This document shows positions 3,313 through 32,200 of a stretch of 64,000 nt of DNA, one piece after another (within the stretch, counting starts at the first letter, position 1; each line of letters opens with the position of its first letter). Made by a program: the position numbers and the translations under genes. The notes below the pieces were generated by a model, which made no database searches, was not told the DNA's origin, and saw only the letters and a program-made list of their open reading frames with translations. Origin of the DNA: Marisa cornuarietis (lineage: Eukaryota; Mollusca; Gastropoda; Architaenioglossa; Ampullariidae); contig SMMW01000585.1 of assembly GCA_004794655.1 (NCBI GenBank), forward strand, positions 2,250,001 through 2,314,000, in the 5' to 3' direction.

Positions 3313-4004
3313 CACTTATATTGTTTTACCAAAAACTTACTTCCATAAAGCAACGCTACACACACATACACGTACACACATGAAAGAGCAATTAAGCTCG
3401 ACCAGCGCAGGCCAAACGGCTGAGATGATAAAGATTTAATAAAAATCCACTTATTTCGTGGCCGAATTCTCGCATAGATGATGTGGTTGAATCGACTATA
3501 GGCAGTGGTCGAATGGACTATTGGCTTTAATCGTCGTCGAATCGACCATGGGTGGTGGTCAAATTGGCCACTGGGCGAATCGACTGCCAGTCACCTTCCA
3601 CGCATTAATCTGCCTCTCAATTAAGTGATTTTAGCGAGAGCAAAAAACCGCGAAATCCTCATCCTCATTCTGTCTTCCTCTTGAAAACTTTAAATCGCAA
3701 CACATGAAGGTTCAAAACGTGTTCTCCAGTTGATACATCGTTGGAATTGTTATGACAGCTGTGCTCACAGCCACCATACATGCACATCACATATCTATAT
3801 AATACGTACATATAGTGTTGTAGTGTGGCTACCTGTGCTCGAAAACTGTGCATTTTTCCCAGACATGTGCCTACAGCAGGAGCAAAAGCTATAATTAATT
3901 CTATTCGATCACAACCACTGTAAATATAATAATTAAGCGACCTCATAAGACTAGCAGCACCATGCAATAATTAAAGCATCATCATCAGACAGAAGGAGTC
4001 TTAC

Positions 4005-4056
4005 CTGCAAGGGAAACAAGAAAAACCAGATAAAATGCAAGAATCCTTCCCTCCAT
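4005..4056 (-). CDS. Second MAM gene, exon 1: start codon and signal peptide
   Basis: ATG at 4056-4054 opens MEGRILAFYLVFLVSLA, a typical signal peptide (charged start, hydrophobic core, small residues at the cleavage site), ending at donor GTAAGA in phase 1. The next exon upstream of a MAM start joins in phase, giving cleavage just before the mature N-terminus. Transcribed in the same direction as the large gene, whose 3' end is about 4 kb away. Confidence 0.85.
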
Positions 4057-4782
4057 GGGAAAGATGTTTGGAAGACGTGGCACTGAATCTATAACACAGC
4101 TCCCATTCAGTGCAGTAATATGTAGTATGTGCAGGTTCTGCAAGCGGAGAAAGTACAATGCACATATACAAATGCATTTAATCAAATCGGATCTGAACTG
4201 TGGGCACACACGATACATCGGATAAAGCAATTCAGTCGCACATCATATAGTATCTTAGGGATCTGTTTAAATGAGATGTTCTAGTGTAGGTACAATGTTG
4301 GGACAAGAATAAACTAATTCGCAAAAAAGGGAGATAAAATGATCAAACTATAACTTTAATGTGTTTTAAAGTATAAACGACAGACTTAAAAAACAAGTGA
4401 ATTTCTTTTAATAGTTTGATCCCTTAATTTAGGAGAAGAAAAAGTGTAGTAGGAGGTAAAAAACCGATTACATGGTTTAGACTTCCCCATTCACTGCAAC
4501 TGAAGAATAAAAGAAACAAAGATGGTGACGTGTTTGGTGAGAAAGAGTTGTGTAAGTACCACGATGCGTTTGATAAAATAAAAAGGTCGAAACCCTTTGG
4601 TCTGAAAACCAAAATAATAACAAAGGTCATGCAGCAGCTGTACAACAGAGAAACTAGGATTACAGTGCTCATTATCAAGGAGACACATGGTGAAAAACTA
4701 GTGACTGTTATCACCATCTGCCGGGTACGTATCACTAAAGTGTGCACTGAAAGGTGAACAAGTGATAGCTGAACATTTTAAA

Positions 4783-5010
4783 GGTAAAAAAGGTAAAGGT
4801 CATCCCATAACCTTTTCAGATCATTGGGAAGTGAGGTGTTAGAGACCCCACTTTTCTAGGGGCCAGCTTTTACATGAGGGTGGTGCCAATCTCCTCTCCC
4901 TCGCTTCCTTACCTTCCCCAACCCTCTAAGGAGTCAGGTACCCCGTCAGCTGGGTACTCGGCCATCCGCTTCCCCGCTGAACATTTTGTGTCCATACGAC
5001 TCGCAGTTTA
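4783..5010 (-). mobile_element. SINE-like element, copy 1
   Basis: Minus strand shares the block AAAAGCTGGCCCC...AAAAGTG and the end GACCTTTACC with the plus-strand sequence at 41966-42205. Its head (GCGGATGGCCGAGTACCC) resembles a tRNA box A region. Confidence 0.65.
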
Positions 5011-6019
5011 CACATGTAATGTTCAAACTACGAGAATTGGATATAACGCGTTATACATGGTTTGAAAAAGAAATAGATGTGAACAACAACAAAACTGACC
5101 TGAACCCAAGCGATATCCGGTGATACGCCAGTATATACTGGGGTCCAGCTGATGGGAGGTGGGGATAGCGAAGTGTTCTAAAAACGAAGTATAGACGTCC
5201 ACTTGTAAATATTCGTTATCTGCTTCTTTTTCTCTCATTGACGAGTGTTACACAGTGATGTACCAAAGGTTTTTAGCGCCCGTCACAGCGATTTTTTTTT
5301 TTTTTTAGTATGCCACCAGATATACAGTACTTGTTCATTCTGTACAAAACAAATAAACGGAACTTGAAAGACGAAACTATAATAATCGTCATTAACTGAT
5401 AAATATGATGCGGTCAAAAGTATTGTTGTGAGAATATGAAACTTGAGGATAGTCATGCAGGTATTAATGAACATATGTGTTTTAATAAAAAGAATAATCG
5501 ATTATGATTTTTATTGTTGTTGTAAATGGATAATGGCTAAAATTACGGCAACGAATTTAACTTAAATCTGATATATGCGCTAACCTGATTAACGATTCTC
5601 GATAGTACATTTCTAAAATTGTATCCCCAAGTGAGGGATGCCACAGGAGTCACTAAAGCCATTTGATCCTTGTGGCCAACTTGCAAATAACGGGAAGTTA
5701 ATTGTCTTGCAGGGGAAGCCTGTCGATCGTCTTCGTTGCGCGTTCGTTGACATATCGTTATCGTTTGTTTTTTTTTAAATTCTTTTGCCTGCATCAACTT
5801 CTATCAACGTCCGTATGGTCACCGTATACTGGATCCTGCCGCCGTTAAAAGTTTCTGTGTTGTATCCTTTGTTTATAAACAGTTCAATTTCTGGACACCG
5901 GATGACAACTATAATTCATCATAGACTGTCATCTATAGAATAGATGTAAACATCTGTATCTCAGTGGACTTGTTAATTCGAGTTTTCATCTCCCAGTGCA
6001 TTCAGAGGACTCGGGATTC

Positions 6020-8096: not shown

Positions 8097-8102
8097 TTTA
8101 TT
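8097..8102 (-). terminator. Poly(A) signal AATAAA of the MALRD1-like gene
   Basis: Minus-strand AATAAA about 50 nt past the stop codon, with degraded LINE sequence just beyond. It implies a short 3' UTR. Confidence 0.8.
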
Positions 8103-8150
8103 AAAATTTCTTTCCACCAGCAACATATTATAATACTGATACACAAATTA

Positions 8151-8207
8151 TCAAGTTTCTGTGTCAAGGGGAGTGTCAACTGATCCAGTTGTGCTGTATG
8201 TAGTCGT
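8151..8207 (-). CDS. Window exon 47: terminal coding exon, Thr/Ser-rich tail end
   Basis: Acceptor TTTTGTTTTTCAG. Encodes [18 protein letters not shown] and the TGA stop at 8151-8153. An AATAAA signal lies 49 nt beyond the stop, so this is the gene's 3' end. Confidence 0.9.
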   Translation of the reverse strand, partial: TTTYSTTGSVDTPLDTET

Positions 8208-11200
8208 CTGAAAAACAAAACATTTAATGAATAAACAGAGTTGCATTAGGTAAGGAAAGTTAACTAAAGCTTTAACAAAAATATTTACAGATCAGTGGGT
8301 TTAATTTATTATAAGATATTAATGTCCAATATCAGAGCAAAAGGCTATACTCCCTTAGGCAAGATATGATCCTCTGAACATCACAAGTTTCATCTAGATT
8401 TTGAAAACAGTTCAAGACTATCTTTCCTATGCTTCAAAACCAGGATTGCTCATAGCTATCACACTGACTGTGATATCAGTAGGCAAAATTTATGTCAAGT
8501 TTTGTAACAAAATAATGACAGTCATGTTCTGATAATCTACCAGTAGCTATAAGCTTAATTTTGATTAGAGGATCAGGTCAAGTTTTGGAATAAAATAATG
8601 ACAGAGCCAAGTTCTTTTAATATTAGTAACTTAATTTTGTTTTACTCAGGTTAACATTTATACCTTTTTTCTGGATTTCAGTTTTTGGGTTATGCAGAAG
8701 ACAAAACGACAGATCTACTGTCTGTTGACTGGAGTCTTATAACCTTGTGAATGTAGCCTAGAAGAGCCACTCAAACCTTGACTATTAAAGTCTTGTGAAT
8801 CTTGGACAACTGGGATGGATGCTATAGACACGAATTTATTTAAGGTTGTTTTCTTACAGGATCACAAAGCTGTTGACATTCTCGTTATGAGATGAAGTTT
8901 AAAGCCTTCATAAGACCTCATTAGACAAACTAATTGCTCCTGTGTGCACCAGCGAGTGTCCCTGTTGTCACATCTAAAATCATAATCTACAATATTCTCA
9001 AATCTCTTCTTTCTTGTTTTCTGATTACTAACAGGGGGGAAAAAGTAAATCTTCGCTCTTTAATAACTTTCTTCCACTCACCCACCCTCCATCCCCTAAA
9101 CAAATATTAAGTAAATGTATATAATATATACATCAGTGTCATCTGTGCCATGGTCAAAAATGGGATTGGTCATGGTTGTGCTTCGTCTGGTCCAATGGTG
9201 GCGCTGAAATGCTAATGGAAGCCTCAGGCCAGATCTGACAAACAGTAAAAATACAATGACCAACAATGATGTTCTGTTTAAAAAAAAAAAAGTTTGTCAC
9301 CATCTTCTTAAGTGGAGTAGGAGCAAACTGAAAATTCTGGAAACAATTCATGTTTAAAAAGCAACAAAGCCAGATTTGTATAAATGTTTTTCAACTGTTC
9401 ATTTGCACAAAAAATCACTAGAATTGTTTTACTTCAGCAAAACAAATCCACTTATAATTTAGTTGCATTATTCTTCTTAACAGATCTCTTTGTTATTCCA
9501 GTGATAGAATATTCACCCCCTATTTCTTCTGATAAAAAACACAGCTGTTCCAAGGGTTGCTGCAACACCAACGAGTCCCAAAGTTACACCCACAGGTGTT
9601 TCCCAGCTCTCTGTGTGACAAATAGAAACAGTTATTCATTACCTGATTCTGACAAACTGAAAACACTTCAGAGCACTCTGTCGGGCAATATTATCAAGAA
9701 TAAAATATTAATATGAAACCGCAGATGAAAATGTATGAAATAAAAAAGAAATTTATGTTTTACTTCTATTTTGTTGGCTTGACTCGCCAAGTCCTGTTGG
9801 TGTATTGCAGTAGAGGCCAGTGTAGTTGTTGACACAACTAGGACACAGAACACAATGGTTACATCCCTCAGAATGTCTGCTGAAAACTTATGTCATCTTT
9901 ATAATTCATTGTCGAATTTTCTTAATTCTGTAACTATGTATGACTCAAATGTCAGTGACATATTGTAAGGTCTGACTTCTTTATTTTGTGATTCTTTTAT
10001 ACCTAAATGTTAAATGCTACTCTATTACTATCAAGCACTAGTAGTTCTAAATGAAGCTAACCAGAAAAAAGGGAGGAAAGCTTGGAATAAAGCAAAAGAA
10101 GAATTTAAGGCTAGTCTCATTATGCCAGTTGTCAACTATCTATATGCCTTCTAAGGTACCAGATAGTCCTGCTAATTACAGAAGAAAATAAAATTAAGTT
10201 TTAACTAAAGATTTGTGGGCAAAGAATTTTGTTGAAACTCCTTCAAAAGTGTAAATACCAACAGACATTTAAATTAATTTGACCGTTGAAGTAGTAATCA
10301 AAATATAAGATTTTGATTATTACCCCACCATAAAATTAATTCAAAACAGTCCATAGATTGTGTACCACAGTGCCTGCTTTATAGATTGACTTTACTGCTC
10401 CCTAAATCATTCTTTCACTATATCTCAGTTAATTAATGCTCACATGCATGTTGGTCCTGCACCAGCCTTAATCAAGCAGTGACCACCATTAAAGCAAAAT
10501 CCAGAATAACACGCTGAAAAAAAAAAAGGTTTTCAACAATTACCACCGATAGTATGACTGAATACAATCAAAAAAAAACCAACCCCAGTCTATGTTAAAA
10601 ATATGAGCACCTAAAATATTTGTCACAAAAGAAATGTTACTGCTCTTGTCAGGGCAGTCTTTATTCAGTCATGATGTGATATGCATGATAACCAGGCAGT
10701 GACAGCTGGTTAGCCTTTGGTTTAATGAGAAACACACTGTTTAGCATGTTTTTACATATTCTGCTTTTACCATTTCTTGAGCTTCTGCTAGAACATAAAT
10801 GCCATTATGAGGTTATAAACAAACTCACAGCACTTGGACTTTGCTTCATCACTTCCATCAGGACAGTCATTCTTATTATCACACAGCTGTGCGTTGGTGT
10901 AACACTGTCGCCTGTTGTCACACTCCAACTCAATGCTATTGCATATTTTTGTTGTTGGAGTCACCGGATTAACTGTTGTGGCAACTGGCAATGGTAGCAA
11001 GTTTGTGTCACTGTGTCGGCAATCAGGTGTAAAAGACACATCATCAACAGCAATGGCTTGATCGGCCATGGCCACATATGCTTCAATAATGATCTGGAAA
11101 GGTATGTCAATACTGATGAGGGGTGAGGCTTCCTGCCAGTTGGGGCCCTGCTGACCAGCGCTTGTCCAGATCTGTCCATCAGGAGGCCCAGCATTGTGTG

Positions 11201-14200
11201 TGCGGTACAGGATGCTGAGACGATGCACACTGCTGCCAAAGATGTAGAAGAAAAGCTTCATCTGGCAGTTCTGTCCTACTGTGGCTTCAAATGGCCGAGA
11301 AATAAGCCAGGCTGTGTCTCCAGGGTTGTGAGACCTTACAAACAAGAAATGTCCGGAGGATTTTCTAGTGGTGTGGTCTGCATCTGGAAGTCCGGAAAGA
11401 GTGGCACTGCTTGGTTGTCCAATCTGCCAGTCAGTCTTATCCTCTATGCCTGTGTGACCTTGGGTAAATTCACCAAAGCTGGAACTCTCAAAATTGAAGC
11501 GTAGGTACAAGACACACCCTGGATCATTTTCATCTGATGCATTCTCATCACCACAGTCATAGGATGCATCACATTTCTTATCTGAGTCGATGCAAAAGCC
11601 ATTGGTGCACTTGAATTTGTTATTGGAACAGTCTGCATCATACACAAATAAAAATTAAATCAATCAAGCAACAAGTTGAATGCAGCTCTTTCAAAGACAT
11701 TACAATCCCAAAATACTGACGAACGTTTCCACGTTAAAATATTTATTCTTTCTGTAAATCCATATAAATTATGAAATTGCTGAAAAAATCTTGAAATATA
11801 TTGTTAAAAAATCAATAAAGACTAAATTGTTGATTTTAAACATGCAAAATACTCAAATTATTGTCTTACCACATGCAAGTTCATCTGAGGAGTCAGGGCA
11901 ATCACTGACACCATCACATCGACTTCCGTTGCTGATGCACATCCTGTTGATGATACATAAGTACTGGTTACTTGTACAGGCTGGAGGAGGTGTGGTGGGT
12001 GGGGTTACTGGTAGCGCTGGCAATGGACTGCCACTGACAGAGCAGCCAGGGCTGAAGGAAAGGTCATCAATGGCTACACCATAGCTGCTGCCCCTTAGCT
12101 GACCTTCGATGATGACCTGGAATGGCTGGGAGACGGTAATCTGTGTGGATGCTCTTTGCCATATGGCTCCATAACTGCTACTCACTGACCATACAACTTG
12201 GTCAGCTGGTCCATTGCGATGTGTACGGTACATGATGTTGATCTGATGTCCATTGCTGCCATAAATATAGTAAAAGAAGTGCAGTGAACAAGGTTTGTCT
12301 GAGGTGGAGGCTTGGAAGGGTACAGATATCAGCCATGCTCTGTCACCAACACGAGTTGTGCTGGAGGCCCAGAGGTAGATGTACTGTCCATAGTGGGTGC
12401 CTGTTGTGTGATCCATGGTGGGAAGGCCAGATGCATTGTTTCCTTTGTACAGTGACCAGTCTTGTTGGTCGTCAATGTCATCCAGCCCCTGAGTTAAATC
12501 GTCAAGATTTTTTGGGTTTTCATCAAAGTCATACATTTTGTACTGAGCACATACATTGTAAGTTTCATCAGAATTATCTCCGCAATCATCCATGTGATCA
12601 CAGATGAGACTGTTGTCAATACAAGCATGGTTTGTACAAGTGAACAAGTCTGCTTGACACTCTGAAACAGGCATTGGTAGTCCACAGTTAGAAAATTCAA
12701 TGTTATCTATGGCAATAGTTCCTGACATATTAAGTGCATTTAAGTGTTCAAACTGAAGTGAAAACATGTTTCTCCTTCGGTCAATTCCAACGATTTCTGT
12801 GACCCACTGATAGGATGTTATGCTGACTGACTGCCACAGAGTGCTGTTCACAGAAGATGAAAAGATTGAGAGAGCTAGAGTTCCTGGGTTAGATCCCTGT
12901 ATGAAGTAGGAGAACTGAATCTTGCACTCTCCAGCACACCTGCTATACACTGGACTCATTAGTTTGTCTGTCTGGCCATTGGTGTTACTATTTTGAGTGT
13001 CCTGTAGGTACAGAAAATAGCCATTGCTTGACCCATCACCATCTTTCTGTGGCGCAGTTGGGACATTGTGAATATCACTAGGCCTCACACGCTGCCAGTC
13101 TATTGAATCAGGAATGTATTTTGTCCATCCACAAAAGGAGGCTAAGAAAGTACAGGTACCAATGGTGAAACATGACATTTCATCACTGTTGTCAGGACAG
13201 TCTGTGTTAAAGTCACACTGGTTTTCTCCTGGGATGCAAATGCCTGTGGATGCACACTGGAACTGACCAGCCTGGCATGGTGGGAAAAGTGAGGTAGTAG
13301 AGGACTGTGTCACTGTTGTAGATGGTGTTGGAGGAGGAGTAGGTGATCCTATGCCACATCCTGGTGTGAAAGAGACATCATCGATTGCTATGATACTTAG
13401 GTACCCCACCCCTACAACTCCTTCTATGATTGCTGCAAATGGCTGCTGTGTGTCAAATTTGACCTCTGACTTCTGCCACTGGCTGCCATGGTTTGATGAT
13501 AAGGTTGTATACAAAATATTTTTACCTGATGCATCTCGACTATAGATATTAAGGCTCCCTGAATGAGCTCCAGTCATGTAGTACCACAAACGCATGCTGC
13601 ACTGCAAACCAGGTGTGGGTGCTGGTAGATAGTAAGCTAGACGAGCTTTGTCATTCAGCTGCTGTGGAGGGGAAGACTCAATATATAAATAGTATCCAGA
13701 TGTAGAATCAGTTGTGTGATCTTGTGAGAGACCTGTTCCAGATGTCCCTGTTGGACCCCGATGATGTGTCCAATTAAAATTGTCATCAGTCAGCTGCACA
13801 AAGCCACCCAAGTTTTGCTCAAAATCAATTTTTTTATATGCATAGCATTGGTAAAGAGACTCATCAGTTTCATCACAGCAGTCTGACTGCATGTCGCATA
13901 CCACAGATTGAGTTATGCACTGCCCACTTTGGCATTCAAACTCCCATTCAAATACATCCGCATCACAACCATCTGGGGGCATGCTCCAAACAGGCACTCC
14001 ACAGTTCTCAAAAGAATAATCATCAAGGGCAGCATAACCATTTCTCAGCCCCTGCAGCTCAAAGACAAGCTGAAATTCCGATACACAAAATGGAATAAAT
14101 GCAGTAGCATTGTGCCAAATATTTGGTGCAGGTTGTCCAGAAGGCAGGGCCCAGATTTGTTGATCTATACCACCAGACCTCACAAACAGGAGAAGGTTCT

Positions 14201-17200
14201 TTACACCAGAGCCACCATGCATATACCAGAAATTAAATGTGCAAAAACGACCAGAATTTCTATAAAAGTGAGACACCAGCCGTGAACTGCCATACAATGA
14301 CTGTGTGATGGGAAATACAGCTGAAACAAAATGTCCTGATGCTGTCCCTGGATTGTGATCTACAGCAGCATAGCTAAAAGACACAGGGGTCCTTAAAATC
14401 CAGTTTGCTGCATTGCCTTCAGGTTGATTGGTCCACCCACACATTGGGACATATTGTGTCTCAAAATCACAAACTGAAGGGCACTGAGTTTCATCTGAAC
14501 CATCTTCACACTGAGGATTAAAGTCACAGCGAATAATATCTGGATAGCATTGTGAGTCAAAACCACAGAAAAATGTTCCTGCTGGACAATGACTGTTGTT
14601 GCCAGGCAAAGTGGTGATGGCTACAAATGGTGGAAGACTTGCACCTACTGCTAGCTTACAGCCTGGTGTGAAAGAGATATCATCCAATCCTATATCACCA
14701 AGGTCACTGGCACCTGTCGTCCCTTCGATCACAACCCTAAAGTTATATGCACTAACAATGCTGAGGATGGTCTTGCGCCACTCATCACCCTGCTGACCAT
14801 GAATAGACAGCAGCAGTGCTCTGGAGCCTTGTTCTGCTCCTTCTATGTAGATGTTAAGAGCATTGATGTCCTTTCCAAGCATGTGATGAAAAAATCGCAT
14901 GTAGCATTGACCTTCTGATGCTGGTTGGAAAATCAGGCTTTTTAACCTGGCAGTGTCATTAGGTTTTCTGTTGGAACTCTTCAAGTACAAGTATGTTCCA
15001 GTCTCAGTACCTAGTGTGTGATCTCTGTCAGGGCCGGTGCCTGCTGTGGTGGTAGAACCTGATTTTCTAGTCCAGTCAAATACATCTGTCTGATCCTGAA
15101 TCCAGTTGCACAAATCTACCTCAAAGTTGCAGCGCTCGACATAGCTAGAGCAATTCTTTTCATCTGAGTTGTCACCACAGTCATTAGCGAAATCACAAAC
15201 CTTGGTCTCATCTACACAGATGTGGTTATCACAGTGGTACTGGTCTGATGCACATTTACTCATGTTAGAGCCAAGAGCACAGCTGGGACTGAACGTAATA
15301 TCATCAAGAGCAATATCACCATTTTTTGTACTAAAAATTCCTTCAAAAACAAGTCTGTAACCTGGGGGACGTGCCCCTAAACCAGCTGTAGCACTGGTCC
15401 AGTTACTTCCCAGTGCTGCTGAAGCTTGCCACACTTGGATACGCTGGCCATCATATGGACTCTGTCCTGGAGGAACCAGGTACAGACTCAGGAATGCAGA
15501 AGTCTTCTTGTGCACCCAGAAGCTGATTACACAACCAGCACCAAAAGCACCATACATGGGTGATACCATTAATGCCTTCCCATAGTCATCTGCTGCAGTT
15601 GAGTCCACATAAATGTAGTTTCCAGTGTTCTCCCCTGTGGTGTGATCTGTGTTTGGTCCTGAAATGGCAGAAGCTGTGGAGCCATTGTGTCGTTCCCACA
15701 CATATTTATCAACACTGATGTCCTGCCAACCACACATACCCTGCTGGAAATCACATGCCCCACAGTTGGCTTCATCTGAGTCATCAGTACACTGGGTAAC
15801 AAAATCACACACCTGAGATCTGGATATACAACTTGAAGGATTTAAACATTGAAAGTAAACACTGGGGTCACCACAAGGTGAAGGTGTTGTGACTGAAGAG
15901 CCTGCTGTGCCTATGGGGAAGTCCGTTGTCAGAAGTTTGCATGCTGGAGTGAAGACGGTGTCATCTATTCCTATATCTCCCAAAGAAGAATTGTGCAAGA
16001 TTGCCTCTATTATGATTTGGAAAGGTTTTGTGTCATAGATAGGAACCACAGAGCTCACCCAGTAATTGCCTATCTCACCAGATCTGCTGAACCTTTTAAC
16101 AAGTGGACCATTGAAAGAGTTTCGAGTGTAAACTGTCAGGCTGCCTGTTGTACTGCCATAGAGGTAGCAGAAAAATTTCAACTGACAGTATGGAGCTGAC
16201 ACAGAAGCTTGAAAGGCACGGCTAATAATCCTGGCTGTGGATCCTTCTTTTTGAGGGTCAGAGCTTTTTACGTAGATGTAATGTCCTGAGCTGGTACCCA
16301 GGGTGTGGTCGTGCAAAGGGCCGGTGCCTGGTGTAGGGGTGGGCCCTGCAAGTCGACTCCAGTCCAGATTGTCTGTAACATCTTGATCCCACCCACACAT
16401 GCTTGTCTCAAAGTCACAACGAATATAATCATCACAGGTGTAATCAAGTTCATCAGTACCATCTCCACAGTCATCAACAAAGTCACATACATTCTGTGTT
16501 GGAACACAAGCCTGGCTGAGGCATCTAAAGGTGCTGAATGAAGTGCAGCTGGTGGCTGGGTCTGGGAAGGAACAGTGCTGGAAAAATATGTCGTCAATGG
16601 CAATGTCACCAAGAACATTAAATGATCTTGTGGATCCAATCAAAAGAGTGAAAGGTGAGGCCATTCGTCCAACTGGAATAACTGCCTGATACCATCGATT
16701 GCCATGGTCACCACTAGTTTTCCACAAGTAAGTTTTTATGACACCTTCCTCCTTCATGACATAAAGATCTCCCATCCCCCTTCCAAACATGTGGTACCAG
16801 AGGCTTAGCTGGCATGTGGCTGAAGAGCTCTGAAACAGTGGGCTCTGAAGGAGAGCCTGGTCATAACGTGTTCCATTAGAGGCATCTGTGTACAAATAAA
16901 AGCCCAGGCCAGAGTTAGTCGTGTGATCTCTGTCTGGTCCTGTGTTGGAATCAGGGGTGGCACCACGGTATTTTGTCCAGACATAGGTTCCTTCACTGTT
17001 GCTGACCCAGTGGCAAGTCTGATTGTCAAAGTTGCAGTTGTAGCCACAAGCTGTTTCCTCCTCTCCATGGGGACAGTCAGAAACAAAATCACAGACTTTG
17101 TTGCGAGCAATGCATGTGGTTGATCCAGGACAGGTGAAGGCACACTGCTGTGCAGACACTGAGGGCAATACACTGCAGTTCCCTGTCTGCACTGAGATGT

Positions 17201-20200
17201 CATCAATGGCAACAGCGCTGAATCCTTCTGCAATGATGTACTCAAGTACAATGCGGTAAGATAAAATTATGTTGGCGATGGTCACTCTTACCATCTGCCA
17301 GTATGCCCCCTCCTGCAACAAAAGCCCATGAACTGTGAAAAGTACAAGATCATAAAATAAAAGTTATGAGCAAATATAGCAAAAGTAAAGGAATGATGAC
17401 AAAAGCTAACAAAAGCCATGCAAAACTTAATGAAATATTAATTTCAGTTTAACACAAGATCATGTATATCACGTGTATGTATGCACACAAAATATAGGAT
17501 CTTAACAGTTTAAACATGAAGGCTATATACCTGTGTAATGCTGACTATCTTCCTCTGATAACCAGTTGACAAGATCAGCACATTAATGTTAATGGTGCTT
17601 TTTGTAGCCATCATGTACCATAATGTCAGACAGAGAGCTGTAGAGTTGTCAAAAGAAGGTGAAATGAACCAAGCTTTCTCACCAGGTAGAAGGGGGAAAG
17701 CTGAGTCAGTGTACATATAAATACCATAAGCTGTGTTCATTGTGTGGTCAAGAACCAGGCCTGGGAAACCTTTCAGTGCTACATTCTGCCCTTGTAGCCA
17801 GTCAAAGTTATCTCCCACAGCAGTGTTCTTCCAGGTACAAAGGTTCTCCTCAAAGTCACAGTTACCTTCGCCAGGACAAGCACCAGGCTGAACAATAATG
17901 TCATCTATACAGATAGAGCTGAAGATTCCATTTCCAATTATACCTTCAAACGTGACCTTAAATGGGACAGTGCTGTAAAGAGTAGCCTGACCAATGTCCC
18001 ACTCAACGCCCTGTTCTCCAGTGCGAGTGAAAATGGCATTACTAAGAGCGCCATCACTATGGGTGTACACATTCAGTGTCCCTACTCTTGCTCCCTGTAC
18101 ATTGTACCCGTGCATATTGAACCAAAACTGCAAACAGGAGCCTGAGGTTGCATCCAGCAAGGGACTGTCCAGTCGTGCAAAGCTGCCAGGTGATAAATAG
18201 GCAGAAGATCTGATGTACATGTAATGTCCTTGTAGGGTTCCCAAAGTGTGATCTGTGGAGGGGCCAATGGCTCTGGTGCTAACTGTGCCAGCCTTCAAGG
18301 TCCAGTCAAAATTATCATCATATGCCTGGCTGTATCCACACTGACCATCTTCAAAGTCACAAAGTGCCCCTGCTGGACAGTGACCAACATTTAAAGAAAT
18401 ATCATCAACTGCAGTACAGCCGTCTGCATCATAACCTGGTTGTCCCTCTAAGATGATTATCATAGATCCAGAAATGTTGATGTGCACCTGGTTATACTTC
18501 CACTGTAGGCCTTGATTTCCTGTGCGAGTCCACAGCTTATGCAACAATCAAAAAAAAAAAATCTTAAAATGTAGTTTACATATCTAGACAAAAACAAAAT
18601 GTTTAAATGTATTTCATGTACAAATATACTGTTTAACATTGTATGATGTTAATTATATTGCAACTATTAATATCCAAATTCTGATTTTTAAAGCAAAAAA
18701 TTAAGAAGCCTTTAGCTACTTACTGTTTGGATTGTGTTGTTGCTTTCTACCAGCAGCGAGAATTGTTTAATGGAGCTTCCAAACATAAAGTACCAGAACT
18801 TGAAGCAAGCACCTTGGCGTCCAGCTGTTAATAATGGGCTGAGCAGGCGACCAGTAATGTTTCTACCATTAGGTGATGAATCAATATACGCAAAGTGTCC
18901 CTGGCCAGTACTATAGGTGTGGTCAGCTGTGGGACATGTTCCTGAAAATGATGTTCTGCCAACATCAACATCCCAGTCTAATTGATCATTGTAGTCTTGG
19001 TGCCAGTTACAGATGTCTGACTCAAAATCACAATCTATGGAGGTAGGAGGGTATGTCACTGGTGATGTTAAAACACTTGAAGGAGCTGTAGTCTGGGACA
19101 TGCTAAAACAGCGATAAGATGATATTGATATGTCATCAATGGCAATATCTCCTGTAGTATTGCCTCCATAAACACCTTCAAAGATGATCTCAAATGAGTT
19201 GTTGGTCAGTATAGGAGCTCTACCTGAGTTCCACACATTGCCCTGGTTGCTGCTTAGAGACCAGATGAGAGTCAAGTTATGAGTGGATGCAGACCATGTG
19301 TAGACATTCAGGGTGCCTATTCCCACCCCATACAAGTGATAATAGAAGGTAAGACATCCCCCTGTTGAACTTCTAGGAGGTGGCACAGTCTCACTAACAA
19401 GCCATGCTTTCTGCCCTGTTGTTAAGTTGGCGCCAATAGTTTCCAGGTACATGTAGAACCCAGCTGATGTGTGGCGTGTGTGGTCAGTAGATGGACCCAA
19501 TGTGCGACTTGATGATTTCCCACTTCCTCTCTGCCAGTCAAAGTCATCACCAGTAAGCGCATTAGAGTAAGAACATGTATCAGCTTCAAAACTGCAGCTA
19601 CCTAACGGACAATCTCCATTGTTGAAGATGATATCATCAACAGCAATGTTTTCTTGCTGACCACCAGTGCTGATGCCTTGCATTAGGATCCTGAACTGCT
19701 GATTGCTCAGATAGGGGAGACTGACTGCAGCATGCTTCCACTGATCTCCTTGGTCTCCCTGTATGCTCCACACATACTGAGGTGGCAAAGTTCCATTTAT
19801 AGTGACAGATATATTCAGTGACCCTGTATGTTGTCCATGCATGTAATACCAGAACTGTAGGCAAAATAATGAAACACTGTTAAGCAATGTGCTGGTAAGA
19901 ACTGCTTTATCTCCAGATCTGCTTCCATGTAGAAACAAAAAGTGGCCTGAGTCTGAACCAAATGTGTGATCTAATCTTGGTCCTGTTCCCAAGGTTGTGG
20001 AACCACTGGTGCCTAGAGTCCAGTTGATGTTACCCATACTGCTCTGTGTCCATGAACATGTGTCCTCTTCAAAGTTACAAGATGGTGTAAGAGAACAAGG
20101 TCCCCTTGAGGATGAGATGTCATCTATAGCAATGTCACCAAGGTAACCCCCTGAAAAAGCCTGGAAAAAAAGGGAGTATTCTGTAGTGCAAGTGACAGTG

Positions 20201-23200
20201 CGCTGGGCTTGTCTCCACTGGTCACCCTGAGGTCCACGCTTAGACCACAATGTCTGCACACCCTGTGGCATCAATAAGCTGAGTGTAAGATTACCCACAG
20301 TTGATCCAAACATGTAATACCAGAAAGTTAGACAGTAACCAGCAGAATCAGTAGGTGGAAGCCATGGAGTTTGTAGGACTGCTGAATCACCTGGTCTTGT
20401 TGGTGATGATGTTTCAATGTATGCATAGTAGCCTGCACCTGTATCATGATCACCAGATGGGCCAGTGTGTGCAGTTGGTGTTGAGCCCTGGTGTCTTAAC
20501 CAGTCCATCTGGTCATTGGTGCTCTGATTCCAGATACAGAATCCAGTCTCAAACGTGCAGCTGATAGTGGGAGGTAGCTGTGTTGGATTGCAGTAAGTAA
20601 AGGTAATGTCATCTATTGCCACATCAGCAGAGTTGTTGACAAGAGCTCCTTGGCCAGGCATCACACGAAATTCAAGATGAGAGCCTGCTGGCAGACCACC
20701 TAATCTGCCTATGTACACATCCAGGGACTTCCAGTCTGACTCAACATTATAAGACAAGCTATACATGGGTCTAAACGAATCATTAACAGTCATTCCCACT
20801 AGAAGGGAACCAAACTGGTGACTTGAAATATAGTAAAAGACAGTTATAATGCAGTTAGTAGAAAGTGCTGGCAATGGAGGGCTTTGCAGTCTGGCCACTT
20901 GTTGAAACACTCCTCTGTCACCCTCCACATAAACATAGTGACCCTGTCTATTTCCCAGAGTGTGATCTGAAGCTGGGCCCACCACCCCCATCAAAGCTGG
21001 GTAGCTCAGTGTCCAGTTGTAGCGTCCAACACTTAAATCTTTGTAGCCACACAGTCCTGCTTCAAAACTGCAGACACCACATATCAACTCATCAGAGCCA
21101 TCTAAACAATCCTTGGAGAAGTCACAATAGCGAGACTGGTCTATGCAGTCACCATTTGCACACTGGTACTGGCTCATTGCACACACTCTGGGAGTTGTGG
21201 CAGTTACCGTGTAACCAGCTGTGGGGAGAGTATTTTGTGAAAATCTACAGCCTGCTGACAACACAATGTCATCCACAGCTAAGTCACTATAATAGCCAGA
21301 GCCAATCACATTTTCAACTATAACAGAAAATGGTTGAGTAGAAACAAGAGGCCGTGAATCTCGTACCCACACAGGACCAAGGTCACCTGAGCGATGAATC
21401 AAAGTGCTAGGGTAACCATTTGATGATGTTTGCATGTAGACATTAAGGTCGCCCATAGTTCTACCATTCATGTTGTAGTAGACAACGAGATAGCAGTTGT
21501 CACTGGCTGTAGTAGGCTGGATTACTGGACTAAGTAGTCTTGCCTTTTGACCAGGGCGACGTGGTGCTGAGGACTCTGTGTAAACATAATGTCCTGTCAC
21601 AAGACCTGTTGTGTGGTCACGGAAGGGACCTGTGTCTGGAGTAGGGGTCTGACCACTCATGATCACCCAGTCAAAATCATCTGTGACATCCTGAGTCCAG
21701 TCACAGAGTGAGTGCTCAAAGTCACACATGTGGGCAGCTGTACAGGTGGCTTCATCACTATTATCCTGCTGACCACAGTCCTTCTCCCCATCACACACCT
21801 GATCCTTTTTAATACATGATCCCATCTGGCACTGAAAGGAACCAGGAGGGCAATATGCTTGTGGTGAGATGTATCCACAGTTAAGGAGCTGAACATCATC
21901 TATGACAAGGCTACCATATGACAGAAATCTCTTGGCTTCTATGTAAATCTGGAAGTCGCCATTAAAAGCACCTATGTCTGCCACAGCAAATAGCCACTGG
22001 TTAGTAACAGAGCTGCTACGTAGCTGCCAGATGATGGTTTTGGTTTCTCCAGTCATGACAGAAACCTGAAGCTGACCAGCACCAGGACTACCAATGATGA
22101 AGTAGTAGAAATACAGCTGGCAGGATGGAGAAGACTGATGAAGCAGAGGACTTGCTAATGTGGCCAGAGAGTTGAAGGTTCCTTGGCTTGTGTCCACATA
22201 CAGCAGATATCCATTGCTTTTGTTGTAAGAATGGTCAAATGGAATTGGAAGACTCTTTGTGGAGGTAGCATTACTGGTACGCAGGTACCTAAAGGAGCCT
22301 TGGCTAATGTCCATGTATCCACAAAGATCTGCATCAAAGGTACAGTTTCCACACTGAATCTCATCACTGCCATCAGAACAGTCCTTCACAAAGTTGCATA
22401 CTTTGTCACTAGTCACAGTCTGCTGATTTCTGCAGGTAAATGTTGATGGCTGACTACTGGAAGAGCAGTCTTCATCTGTCAGACTGACATCATCAATGGC
22501 CATGTCACTGAGGTAGGAACTGCCAACCACACCCTCAAAGACCAGCATAAACTCTTCTTTGTTGTCTTTAACAGGGACTGAGGCTTTCTGCCACTGAACT
22601 CCCTGGTCTCCACTCTGTGTCCAGAGCTGATTAAGTCCTGATGGTCCAGTGACTAGGTCCTTGTACACAGAGAGGGTACCCATGCCAGCACCATGCATAC
22701 TGTACCAGAAGGTCAGGCACTGGGGATGTGAAGTGTTGTTCAGAATCTCTGAGTGTAGTCGAGCTTTGTCTCCTGTTTTCCTTGGCTGAGATGCCTCTAT
22801 GTACATGTAGTGACCTGTGCATCAAATTTTACATTAAGCTTTTACATTCTTTAATGATATATATGTTCAGAGTGTAGCTTCTTACTTTCTATCCCACCTC
22901 TCTCTCTCTTCTTCACTCCTGCATACCCATGCACACACACATCTGTACAATAAGAATATGCGAAATGGTGACCTTGATCAAATCCAACATATATAGCACA
23001 CAACTATTGTATCTCAATCAAAACCCACTGCCTTTAGATTGTTAAAACTAACCTTTAATGTTCTGCAGAGTATGGTCACTTGTAGGCCCAGTATTTGCAG
23101 TGATGGTGGAGCCCTGAGAGCGAATCCAGTCAAAGTCATCACCAGAGTTGTCATTGCTCCAGGCACACTGTCCCTGTTCAAAGTCACATGAGGCTGGTGG

Positions 23201-26200: not shown

Positions 26201-29200
26201 GTATAGATCTGCCCTACCTAGCTTGTAACTTACATGAAATTAGGTTTTAGCATATGGCAATACTTTCAAAGTGGTTCTCAAATGTTATAATGCTAATGAT
26301 AAAATTTTAATTTTCGCTATGATTTTTGCAGATATTTGAAAATTCATTTCATCCACAATAAGTCCACCACTTAAGTGTAAGTCAAGAAATTTCAAAATGT
26401 TGAGATAAACGGTTCAGGTTTTATAAACTTTGGTTGGGGTACGTATGGATCCCAGCGGCCATTAAAGGGTTAACAAATACACTGGTCACTATGAATTTGA
26501 GACCATTCTTTTAACCCTTTGTACCTCCTGTGGTAGTACATTTCTTCCCTTCTTAGTTAGAACAACATATAACATATCTCAAGTTTTGGTCTGACATGGA
26601 CTGGTCTATGGCAGTCAAATAATAGCCGAAGATCATGCAGTTATACAGTCTCTTTAAAGGGTTTAGAACGCTCAATCTTTGACTGAAAAGCTTAGACAAC
26701 AAAAGGGAATTAATGGATATTTGTATTATTATTTCAGTTTCAGGAATGTTTCTGATACTCTGTTTATAGTCTGATGTGACAAATAGCTATACCTATTCCT
26801 GCTTAAGAGGTATATCAGAAAGCAAGAAAATGCACCTGATCTAGGGCAGTTGCCATCATTGAAGAAAATATCATCCAGTGCTATATCACCTTGGTAACCC
26901 CCAGTAAGCACACCTTCAAAGACAATCTGAAAAAACACTCATAATTACCAACATATGCATAAACGAATTAATGAAAGTACACTTAAAATCCTTAAATGTC
27001 TATCAAATTTACTATAATAATAATAATAATAATAATAGTGAAGATTTTTATAGCGCATATTCACACTCATAGAGAGCATGCTCTTATAGCGCTTAAAACG
27101 AGGAAGAGACGTGGACTAAGTAGATACAGAACAAAGGGGACGAAAGAAAACGACAGTACTGACGAAACAGAAAACAAAAGGCATCAAGTAACAGGAACAG
27201 AAAAATATAGTGATTCTGCAAGAAAGATGGGTAAAGTAGCAAGAGGGAAGGGGTTGGGGTTAAGAAGGACTAGCATTGTGTGGACTGTGTTAGGAGTAAT
27301 GCTCAAGGAAGAGGTGCGTTTTCAGTGCAGATTTGAAAGATTCAGTTGTAGGAAGGTGGCGGATATGGAAAGGAAGAGAGTTCCATTGTTTTGCAGCACA
27401 GTAGCCAAAAGTCCTGTGACCATATGTTGTTGTTCTGGTGACAGGAACAGGATACGGTCGTCAGACGAAGAGCGTAGTTGTCTGGACGGAGAGTAAGGGA
27501 TGAGAAGTTCAGTGAAATAGTCAGGACAGGAGCCAGCAAAGAAATTAAAACACAGCACAGACAGTTTGTACTGAATGCGAGAACGGACGGGTAGCCAGTG
27601 TAGAAAACGAAGGAGAGGAGTGACATGGTCCCGTTTCCTTGCTCTAAGCACCAGACGCGCAGCAGAGTTCTGTACTCTCTGGAGTCTCTGAATGAGGTAG
27701 TCAGGGCAGCCTGCCAGCAAGGAGTTGCAGTAGTCAAGTCGAGAAAGAACAAACGCACAGACAAGAGTGTTGGTAGCCCGTGTAGAGAGAAAGTGACGGA
27801 TAGCACTGATCTTAGGAATCTCATAATAGGCAGACCGACAGACAGATGCTACATGTCTATCGAGTGTCATGTCATCAGTGACAATAAATCCCAGATTCCT
27901 AACAGATGACGTGAAGGTGATGTTGCTGTCGCCCACCTTGATGTGATTGGGCAGACTGACGAGTGAAGGTTGATGTCTTCTTCTATGGCACAAGAGGGCT
28001 TCCGTTTTATCATCATTTAGTTTAAGCTTGTTTTTTACCATCCAGCCCTTGACATCGCTGATACAAGCTTCTATAGAGCTAATAGCAGAGTGAGACTCAG
28101 CCGGCGGAGTGCAACAGTAAAGCTGCGTGTCATCAGCATAGGATTGATGAGAAACCTGGTGAGACCGGATGCATGATGAAAGGGGCTTAGTATACAGGAT
28201 GAACAGAACTGGGCCAAGTACTGAGCCTTGGGGAACACCACAGAAAAGTGAAGCAGGGCGAGATATCTGACCATCAACTAACACAGTCTGGGTCCTATCA
28301 GTGAGATAGGAGTTGAACCATGAGAGGGCAGGTCCAGAAATCCCGTAGAGGGTGTGGAGTCTGTGAAGAAGCAGAGAGTGGTCTATAGTGTCAAATGCAG
28401 CAGACAGGTCCAGTAGGGTTAATGGAGAGACATCACCACTGTCAAGAGCAGATAATATGTCTGTTGTTACTTTAATAAGAGTGGTCTCGGTGCTGTGGAA
28501 AGGTCTATACGCCGACTGAGCTTGTGGGATAAGATGGTGCTTTTGTAAGTATGCCCAGAGCTGTGTCAAAACTATATTTTCTCTATGATCTTAGAGAGAA
28601 AAGACAAGTTGGAAACTGGACGGTAGTTGTTCAGGACATTGACGTCAAGCGTGGATTTCTTTAGAAGTGGCCTCACCACCGCATTTTTGAACAAAGATGG
28701 GAAAACACCTGACGACAGGCTGACATTTACAATATTTGTGATGGCAGGAAGTAGAGTATCTAGGCACTCGAGCAGAAGGCTTGTGGGCATCGGATCTAAC
28801 TCGCAAGTTGTTGGTTTAGCTTTTAGAATAACCGCTTTCACATCGGTCTCAGAGACTGGTAGGAACTTGGACATGGAGCATCCTGGGTGGACATCACAGG
28901 AGATGCTGTCAAGCGCCGACACAGAGTCTAAAGATGATCGAATGTCCGATATCTTGCTGGTGAAATAATCACTAAAAACTTGCGGCAGCAGTGAAGCAGG
29001 GTAGGCAGTAGGCAGTGGTGTTGCTGTCTTAGATCCAGTCATTTGAGTGCAGATGGCAAAGAGCTTTTTGGAGGAGGTGCAGTTAATTATTTGGCCCTGA
29101 AGATATGATGCTTTAGCCGCATAAATGCATTTTGCAACGCTTCGCTTTGCGGCATTATAAATTTCTTTGTGGATGGCGAGTCCAGTCTTCCGCCAAAGAC

Positions 29201-32200
29201 GTTCAGCACGCCGGCGCGTGCGCTTCAGGTCACGGAGTTCAACGCGGATCTGTGAATACCAAGGCGCACATTTAGACTGGCGCATCAGACGTCGAGACAC
29301 TGGGGCGTGGTCATCAACTACTCTACGCAAAACACAGTCAAGTTGCTCGGCAGAGGGTGGTTGGAGGAGCGCCATCTGCAGCTGTGCTTTGAATGCTAGT
29401 CTATCCACATTTTGTAATGACCGAGTGGGTCTGAAAACTGGCGCCGATGATGGGCATTTGCGATCCAGTTCGATTAGTACTGAGTAGTGGTCAGATGAGA
29501 GATCATGGGAAACATCAACTGACTGGACTAAGTGGTCATCAGGTCGATGTATGACCCAGTCCAGGATGTGATCTCTTTTGTGAGTTGGTTGCGACACGGA
29601 CTGGACAAAACGAAAGGTGTGCAACATTTCGGACAGTTTGACAGTGTCAGGGTGAGAACTGTTGTCGAAGTGTACATTAACATCTCCGAGGAGAATTGCG
29701 GGTCCAATTAGTGCATTGCTATAATCCAAGAGATCATGGAATTCTGAGAAAAATGTAGAGGCTGTAAGTTTGTTCCTGGCGCTAGGAGGAGGTCTGTAGA
29801 TGCAGAGCAGGTGCATCGAGCAATGAGGAGCCGAAGAGGAGACTTGTACAAATTCAAAAGACGTGTGAGGGAACGATACGGCAGTAGTAAAAGACAGGTA
29901 CTTGGCAAGTGATGATCTGTAGATTATAGCAATACCACCACCACGTGTAGGGCGGGGGAAAGATTTCAGGCAGTAGCCCACTGGAGTAAGATCGACACAC
30001 ACGCTCTCGTCGCCATGCTGTTTAAGCCACGTCTCAGTGATGATGAAAATATCAAGGCGGCGGTCTATGACAAATTCTACGATTTCAGCTCGCTTCAGTG
30101 ACTGTTGTGCAGACGATACAGACTGGGCGTTGAAAAGCCCAACGTGGAGGCGAGTGTTCAGTTGTCGTGTGCAGGAAACTTGGCAGTCTCCTGTTCTCAG
30201 ACGACCATGTTGGTTTGGTGTAAAGTTATTCGACCCAACTGGTTCACTCTCATCACGTCCACGCTGACGCTGATGCTGCTGTGTAGGGGAAACATGATTC
30301 AGCAGAGAGTTGACACACAGCGAAGCTTTCACAAAACCGGAGTCAGACTCAAAATCAGGTGAAGGGGGGCACGAGACAGAATAACTACGAGTAGCAGAGC
30401 AGGTGATGGATTTTTTCAAAGGACGCTGCTTACGGTGACCAGCACGATAGCGACGGATTCGAATCTGTTGTTTCAATGGGCAGTCAACATTAATAGAATC
30501 ATAATAAAGGGAAAATCTTCTCAAAGTGTCAACTAAACAGGCTGGAAGTGGAAGAGTTGCAAGGGGATTCAATAATGATAATTGAGTTGTCGAGTAGACA
30601 AACTGTCTTGTCATAATTCTATGACATAAAAATAAAATGCAGCACGAGTTCAAAAAATACAATAAGACGAAAACGATAAAAGATATGAAAACTGATAAGG
30701 ATTTAAAGTTGAGCTAACTTCAGAGAAGGATAAACAGAACAAGCAACAGGAAAGCGAGATAAAGAATAAGATCTAAAATTTAAATGGCTGAGAACGTAAC
30801 CGTTAAAAGTAAAGTCCGCAACAAAAACATAAAAGCGAGGCAATTACAGATAGTAAAACAATAACAGAGGAAAGCTTAAGAGAAACAAATACAACTTGCA
30901 ACTATAAGAAACCTATGGGTACGAAGAACAAAGACGTTGCACGAGAAAATGGAAAAATTCACAGGAGAACAAAGCAACTCAGCCTATACACTTCTCCAAT
31001 GATAGAAATCACAAAGATATTTGCCTTTTAAAATTTAACTATGTCTTATGTATACTAATAGATGCAAAGTCACAATCCCATGAACTGCTCCTGTGTACAC
31101 ACATTTGTATATACATTTGCATGCATTTATGGATGTGCAAAAATATCGGCCAGATTATCCAAATCTTCTCCATACCTTCTTATAACACAATTTGAAATAA
31201 GAGGCAAATAAAGAGAATCCAAAATTTACCTGTACAAGGGTTGGCTGACTCTGAGGAGGGGACAAAGCTTGAGGTGTGAGGAACAGAGTTGCACTGATCC
31301 ACTTGTCTCCTTGTTCACCTGATCTTGTCCAGAGGGCGTTTCCCAGGTTCTGGCCTGTACAGAATGAAACCATAGGGGAATGGTAGGATGGCAAATGAGA
31401 AACTATCTTCTTCCTCTATTTTTACACTTTTCTGAAATACATCCCTGTATTTAAGATATATGCACATACATGAAGGAATAAATTTAAATATACAAAAGAA
31501 AAATAACATTTTGTATGGTTAAACAATATACTCCCCTTGTTATACAAATACTTTTAGAGGATCAGAAATTCAGGGGCATCTAATGTATACAATGAGACCA
31601 TGGCTAAAGTCTTGAAATGTGCAAAAAAAAGTGCCAAAATAATTGTAAAGGATGCAGGCACTACATCTTATAAATAGAATGTAGTGATGTTTGTGTGTGT
31701 GTGTGTGTTTTCAAACGGTGAGCAACAGTTAAAATAAATGTCATCAAATTTGTGCCATGAGTCCAATTACTACCAAAACTGACTGAATATTTTATTGGTT
31801 ATTGATTATTGCTTGGTTGTGGACTATTTTTTGTAGGTGTATGTTGCTCCATCCATGTTTATTTTCCTCCATTCTAAGATGCTTACCAGTGACTCCAAAG
31901 AAAAAAAATATTATGCAGAAGAAATTGCAGCATTCCTCTACTATGCTAAACAAACATGGACATTGCAGGAATTTGAGACAGAACGAATGAAAGAGAGAAA
32001 GAAAGGGTGTAGGGGTAGCATGGCAGTGGGTGACAGTCACAAAGAGAGGGGGGAGATGGCAAAGTCTGCAGGCTAGTTGCATGTCTGCTGGTACCACAGC
32101 AGTTTTTATTTCCCTATTCACTCAAAACATTGTGAGCATGTTGCTGAACATGAATTGTTAAATAAATAAAGGAATATGAGGAGTCCAAGGGCTTCACTAT

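Follow-up and report, generated by a model that had tools for sequence, protein, structure and literature searches.

The window analyzed here, a 64,000-nucleotide stretch of the genome of the snail Marisa cornuarietis (positions 2,250,001 to 2,314,000 of contig SMMW01000585.1; C460:2250001-2314000 in our numbering of the 534-Mb assembly), carries on its minus strand part of a giant modular gene, which would code within the window for about 5,860 residues according to a predicted exon chain. Our subject is the near absence of introns from four large exons of this gene, E1 to E4. The chain was built by dynamic programming from codon usage, splice-site weights and pieces of the hidden Markov models (HMMs) of the MAM and LDLa domains; it was trained partly on the large open reading frames (ORFs) themselves, and the small upstream exons 27, 31 and 34 are shaky. 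E1 (22814-18724; 4,091 bp) is entered in phase 1 and left in phase 0, and codes for the end of MAM12, MAM13-18 and the start of MAM19. E2 (18535-17531; 1,005 bp; phase 0 at both ends) holds the end of MAM19, MAM20 and the start of MAM21, and E3 (17312-11870; 5,443 bp; phase 0 in, phase 1 out) the end of MAM21, MAM22-29 and LDLa modules. E4 (11632-10829; 804 bp; phase 1 at both ends) consists of MAM30 between LDLa modules. Together the four measure 11,343 bp, or 64.5% of exons 1-45; the mean size of the 40 upstream exons is 153.7 bp. A first-pass annotation of the window had given the same four sizes, a share of about 64% of the visible coding sequence and an average of about 155 bp for 38 upstream exons; all of this is reproduced by the independent chain except the count, which becomes 40.

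Thirty MAM domains were placed by HMM. MAM (PF00629) is found in all four large ORFs and LDLa (PF00057) in three, E2 having none. Within MAM13-30 only MAM19 and MAM21 are split, by one intron each, and MAM13-18, 20 and 22-30 are intron-free, as had been noticed at first pass. Upstream, an intron at position B of the domain (HMM position ~127-139, phase 0) is present in all of MAM1-11, and one at position A (HMM position ~43-46, phase 1) in 10 of the 11 domains MAM2-12, MAM7 being the exception (nine of the ten come from HMM placement, and that of MAM10 from the point where exon 33 ends in the chain). The intron before E1 (22815-23052) lies at this canonical position A, in phase 1, with a conserved acceptor. 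Of the introns between the large exons, that between E1 and E2 (18536-18723; 188 bp; GT-AG; 22% GC) interrupts MAM19, that between E2 and E3 (17313-17530; 218 bp; GT-AG) interrupts MAM21, and that between E3 and E4 (11633-11869; 237 bp; phase 1) follows an LDLa module at a conserved position.

The domain make-up (MAM, LDLa, EGF, transmembrane helix) marks the gene as a giant member of the MALRD2/MALRD1 kind that codes for a type I membrane protein; the window contains its 3' half, and the rest extends upstream. Among the matches listed, the closest named relatives are a MALRD2-like model of Pomacea canaliculata for E3 (76%) and a different Pomacea model for E1 (85%); two models from this genus, 1,270 and 1,037 residues long, each match one large exon of the gene. 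Two Pomacea proteins, P0001 and P0208, look like pieces of such giant genes and are filed separately as MALRD2-like and MALRD1-like, an illustration of how gene models of such giant genes can be fragmented. A more distant relative, P0023, is 35-38% identical to E1. The order of the MAM domains is collinear with that of relatives, in that a single clearly best offset was found for MAM13-30 against a bivalve ORF, P0142, Haliotis, Aplysia and amphioxus.

The gene is present in at least six tandem copies at C460:2137001-2925500 (150 of 749 candidates were scored), the copy in the window occupying about 2261-2273 kb. E1-E4 were found in all six, as were both inner introns, and none of the 18 sequences of E1, E2 and E3 contains a stop. 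Pairwise ratios of nonsynonymous to synonymous substitution (dN/dS) in these three exons are 0.20-0.40, by which measure the exons of the tandem copies are under purifying selection. A retrogene was rejected because introns are kept on both sides of the large exons and because the gene sits in a tandem array. As to the idea that the large exons are an artefact of assembly or annotation, with mis-joined introns or contamination by complementary DNA (cDNA), no evidence in its favour was found; six diverged copies with E1-E3 open and constrained, and the occurrence of the same exon in other animals, leave it a negligible probability.

The giant exon in other animals

Forty-two ORFs, all of them gene-called proteins from public contigs and selected from the best 120 matches of each of three protein searches, were aligned to the window protein. 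In ten of them a single frame covers the E1-E3 product from residue 1-44, at or just inside the start of E1, as far as residue 3512, where E3 ends. Four of these (P0136, P0138, P0141 and P0144) sit on contigs measuring between 757 kb and 3.58 Mb, which are too long to be transcripts; the others (P0140, P0142 and P0145-P0148) are on contigs of 10.8-15.5 kb. In a tree of 56 rows, which did not include P0211, nine of the ten join Saccostrea and Dreissena in a clade of bivalves (support 1.000), and P0142, together with P0012, is placed outside the molluscs (branch support 1.000; gastropod node 0.595). Two gastropod ORFs, P0031 (437-kb contig) and P0033 (379-kb contig), which group with the land snail Candidula, also span both inner junctions and have neither inner intron. 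Overall, the E1/E2 point is crossed without interruption by 26 of the 42 ORFs and the E2/E3 point by 29, some of these being paralogues or possible transcripts. The rows of Pecten, Solemya, Owenia, Paramuricea and Antedon are oddly placed in the tree and are probably paralogues.

The ends of the exon leave footprints in these proteins. Among the 18 ORFs that reach or pass residue 3512, 16 continue with the dipeptide [GR][KE], whose background frequency is 0.8%, and meet a stop 2-86 residues later, as expected if a GTRAG donor is read through. Sequence upstream of residue 1 is available for seven ORFs, and in five of them (P0140, P0141, P0147, P0149 and P0209) it is a non-MAM flank ending in [STL]G, as expected from read-through of a YAG|G acceptor. 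By the donor and acceptor footprints, the giant exon has kept both its ends within the molluscs, the acceptor at position A of MAM12 and the phase-1 donor after the LDLa module that comes next to MAM29. In the giant-exon ORF that the tree places outside the molluscs, the same exon is unbroken from no later than residue 39 up to that donor. Stops occur in all three frames in 12 of 12 intron intervals of the six tandem copies, so that introns of this kind could not be passed by any ORF.

What is best shown by these comparisons is that the stretch corresponding to E1-E3 appears in bivalve ORFs as one unbroken exon of about 10.5 kb and 3,500 codons, with the same acceptor and donor. Judged from the ten giant-exon ORFs and from P0031 and P0033, which lack the inner introns, the intron-poor state of this stretch is ancestral. 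An arthropod-like ORF, P0041 (2,961 codons), and a placozoan-like one, P0057 (1,532 codons, on a 25.6-kb contig), constitute weaker evidence that suggests a still older exon; P0057 is 73% identical to Trichoplax, yet lies apart from it in the tree.

Several observations weigh against this view of the exon, or at least against its simplest form. The ORFs were read as proteins and not as DNA, and their taxa were assigned by similarity and by the tree. P0010 and P0014 pass residue 3512, lack the donor footprint and continue into a transmembrane tail; they may come from transcripts, or from genes in which this intron is absent. Upstream of residue 1, P0172 and P0294 read as MAM sequence. These four may be transcripts, paralogues or other structures, and transcripts may also underlie P0003, P0009 and P0132. 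Nor has the exon stayed untouched, as other lineages show interruptions of their own: oyster ORFs end at about residue 3407-3409, P0031 and P0033 at about 2392, and P0004 starts at about 1961. P0150-P0152, from one bivalve clade, end at about 3431-3433, at the canonical position B of MAM29, where an intron could have been re-gained or an old one retained. As an exon of all animals, moreover, it would have to be reconciled with vertebrate MALRD1, which is intron-rich and made of many small exons.

These results bear directly on the cause first proposed for the one-sided pattern, namely conversion of the 3' part of the gene by a partial, 3'-biased cDNA, recently and in the snail lineage. The pattern is indeed one-sided, and adjacent introns are gone en bloc, but the same and a larger exon exists in bivalves and outside the molluscs, including in ORFs on megabase contigs, and the structure is common to all six tandem copies. 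Moreover, the tract lacks the 3' bias that priming of a cDNA would produce, as the 3'-most introns are kept: the E3/E4 intron is present, with the E3 donor footprint in most of the ORFs that reach it, and small exons (10526-9123, edges approximate) follow as far as the 3' end of the gene at about 9.1 kb. These exons code for two EGF pieces (about 10526-10446 and 9839-9756), a transmembrane helix (9610-9517) and a short cytoplasmic tail (about 9205-9123), and were found, together with the position of the 3' end, by tblastn with the C-termini of four relatives, that of Batillaria being the clearest. The earlier remark that the extreme 3' end retains its introns is thus borne out. Since outgroups are equally or more intron-poor here, which the first-pass annotation had itself named as a refuting finding, E1-E3 were not made by a recent or lineage-specific cDNA conversion, a cause to which we now give very little credence.

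Polarity of the inner introns and exchange between tandem copies

If the undivided exon is ancestral, the two short introns of the snail would be later additions. Three ORFs, P0209, P0210 and P0211, stop at the E1/E2 donor, and in the tree P0209 and P0210 join Pomacea, Batillaria and the window (support 1.000). Parsimony requires one gain as against four losses of the E1/E2 intron, both on 23 leaves (3 with, 20 without) and on a stricter set of 20. Six more ORFs that cross the E1/E2 point (P0010, P0172, P0198, P0233, P0255 and P0293) were left out of the count and would add intron-free leaves. We infer a single gain of this intron among the caenogastropods sampled. The E2/E3 intron, present in all six tandem copies and absent from the same outgroups, is probably also a gain; no other caenogastropod was seen across the E2/E3 point. 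A search of the genome for a source of the E1/E2 intron (transposon, introner or local duplication) returned one match, the intron itself, and a transposon origin was rejected on this ground. Within the window, one weak match of 33 bp and shorter ones were seen.

Compared with the other copies in 300-bp bins, the window copy is a mosaic. In places it is only 2-4% from other copies, and many bins of E1 and E3 are at 2-10%. Divergence is 14-37% in the segment that runs from the end of E1 through E2, with both introns, into the start of E3 (window 17100-18900); this segment comprises six bins, at 3901-5700 of the compared span, over which the other copies differ from one another by 7-14%. Further high bins are found at 1801-2100 (20%) and at 8101-9000 (23-25%). 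In keeping with the bins, the synonymous divergence (dS) of the window-copy E2 is 0.635-0.699, as against 0.21-0.31 when E1 and E3 are compared in those pairs. This mosaic, as read from the pattern of bins, points to gene conversion at the DNA level between the tandem copies, in tracts of limited length, and the longest diverged segment of the window copy is the one that contains both inner introns. Two loci between the copies, L019 (C460:2366501-2370500) and L020 (C460:2853501-2858500), hold single MAM ORFs of 344 and 333 residues, similar in size to E4, and are perhaps remnants of lost copies.

Nine-MAM units and the origin of the giant exon

Along the gene, the MAMs recur with a period of nine, the mean double-centred score being 47.9 at an offset of 9 and, next, 22.0 at 18 and 15.9 at 2. 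Three super-repeats of nine MAMs can thus be delimited: unit B (22477-52544; MAM4-12), which is intron-rich, unit C (17190-22344; MAM13-21), its in-register paralogue, which is intron-free but for the two presumed gains, and unit D (11028-17036; MAM22-30), intron-free but for the intron before E4. In permutation tests the intron-rich MAM4-12 match the bivalve P0136 and P0142 in a register shifted by nine (p 1 in 5001 each), and signals were also obtained with amphioxus (p 0.0008), Aplysia (p 0.005) and Strongylocentrotus (p 0.024). Units B and C are 35.7% identical in register, as against 28.2-32.9% when shifted, and C and D 31.1% as against 27.2-29.2%. In the tree of units, the D units of the snail, the bivalve, amphioxus and P0142 group together with support of 100; C of the snail, the bivalve and P0142 group with support of 69, and the C of amphioxus has no supported place (29). 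The amphioxus C is 39.6-50.2% identical to other C units and 40.0% to its own D, the former being the higher except for the fast-evolving snail. From the unit tree and these identities, C and D were probably distinct before the protostome-deuterostome split.

The register is less clear elsewhere, which has to be set against this account. The permutation of MAM4-12 gave no signal with Haliotis, a partial protein (p 0.26), Nematostella (p 0.28) or Trichoplax (p 0.33), and no in-register excess was found between units B and D (31.0% as against 27.7-31.4%). No order of the B, C and D splits is favoured by the unit identities and the tree.

The register of unit B with unit C nonetheless means that an intron-bearing homologous state exists from which introns could have been lost. 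Since the units with and without introns are paralogues, and positions A and B are common to the former, we infer loss from an intron-rich ancestor: an old loss of introns en bloc, perhaps through a cDNA, is likely. The converse is that the ancestral array was intron-free and that units A and B gained their introns by parallel insertion at favoured sites. P0150-P0152, which end at position B of MAM29 where their relatives do not, indicate that this position may be hit again; about twenty parallel hits, however, with B in the same phase in every scorable split MAM and A in all but one, are hard to credit, and we regard such a history as improbable.

How the old loss came about is less certain. 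The array may have grown from a nine-MAM unit that was already intronless, a single loss thus being inherited by C and D. Both units are intron-free, adjacent and old, as the fully supported D clade attests, but C is not clearly nearer to D than to B (identities of C to D and of C to B are 31.1 and 35.7% in the window, 38.3 and 40.8% for the bivalve C, 42.5 and 41.9% for P0142, and 40.0 and 39.7% for amphioxus), and a single tract over C and D would explain the pattern too. We consider this growth by duplication a real possibility, short of probable. The present data do not tell it apart from one cDNA tract over C and D, so that the first-pass suggestion of duplicated intronless units survives as one of two options for the ancient loss. 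More broadly, what survives of the first interpretation is the sense of the change, placed far back in time: the register of B and C favours an ancient block loss, whether by recombination with cDNA or by the spread of an intronless unit. What falls is the recent conversion.

The giant exon probably arose before the radiation of the molluscs, and perhaps before the protostome phyla split. Some 35 introns within domains (A and B of MAM13-29 and B of MAM12) would have been removed, in addition to those at domain boundaries, while the in-register paralogue upstream of the source units retained its own. The simplest mechanism would be RNA-mediated recombination with a spliced copy. In the message the giant exon would be handled as an ordinary internal exon, and the two short inner introns of the snail would be secondary to it. 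As a whole, an ancient giant exon with two secondary snail introns, formed by a presumed ancient removal of introns, is the explanation that we favour with considerable confidence. A stronger version, that one or very few RNA-mediated events, before the protostome split or even the placozoan split, cleared two nine-MAM units of dozens of adjacent introns, and that the resulting exon of about 10.5 kb kept its splice donor in gastropods, in bivalves and in one lineage outside the molluscs while being re-split at different points, we put forward tentatively and think somewhat unlikely; were it true, the giant exon would be a recorder of intron gain.

Other features of the window

The first visible exons of the gene (62976-63919) code for MAM1 and the start of MAM2, and form the tail of a further unit. 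A LINE-like (long interspersed nuclear element-like) sequence with endonuclease and reverse-transcriptase ORFs lies at 27322-30713 on the minus strand, in the intron between exons 36 and 37, and reverse-transcriptase ORFs of further elements at 58442-59224 (minus) and 59954-60823 (plus), in the intron between exons 3 and 4. Downstream of the gene, a MAM exon at 2952-2806 (minus) stops at the canonical intron A; given that the gene ends near 9.1 kb, this exon probably belongs to another gene, the next tandem copy, of which it would be a 5' piece.

Comparison with known systems

No published account of the exons of this gene was found among open-licence papers, as judged by titles and the starts of abstracts. 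MALRD1 (Diet1) and MALRD2-like genes have the same domain make-up, and the amphioxus protein is collinear in units C and D; a horse MALRD protein has 9 MAMs, as against the 30 placed by HMM in the window. Reverse transcriptase-mediated intron loss by recombination with cDNA predicts a clean loss of adjacent introns as a block. The loss proposed here is ancient and internal, with introns kept on both sides, and the event itself has left no trace. The MAM-bearing, cadmium-binding meprin described from a scallop is a different protein (PMC12357810).

Intron gains are hard to polarize, and a coding exon of 10.5 kb that is free of introns in outgroups makes later introns datable gains, with the in-register intron-rich units of the same gene as an internal control. 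A similar situation is described for dystroglycan, whose large 3' exon was secondarily split by lineage-specific introns in several animal groups; unlike the gene studied here, dystroglycan is not such a long array, and the abstract of that study mentions no paralogous intron-rich unit (PMC5216574). Another parallel is provided by the hemocyanin genes of molluscs, likewise large and repetitive, in which inner introns are few in Vetigastropoda and were gained stepwise and by lineage in caenogastropods, including Pomacea, the phase-1 linker introns being conserved and the large exons being proposed as targets of insertion (PMC8599328). In contrast to hemocyanin, whose repeat units are bounded by conserved linker introns (PMC8599328), some 17 MAMs and their LDLa modules are here joined in one exon, and the MAM/LDLa gene also has in-register units that are intron-rich. 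The present finding is a further, unusually large case of inner-intron gain, with a control inside the gene.

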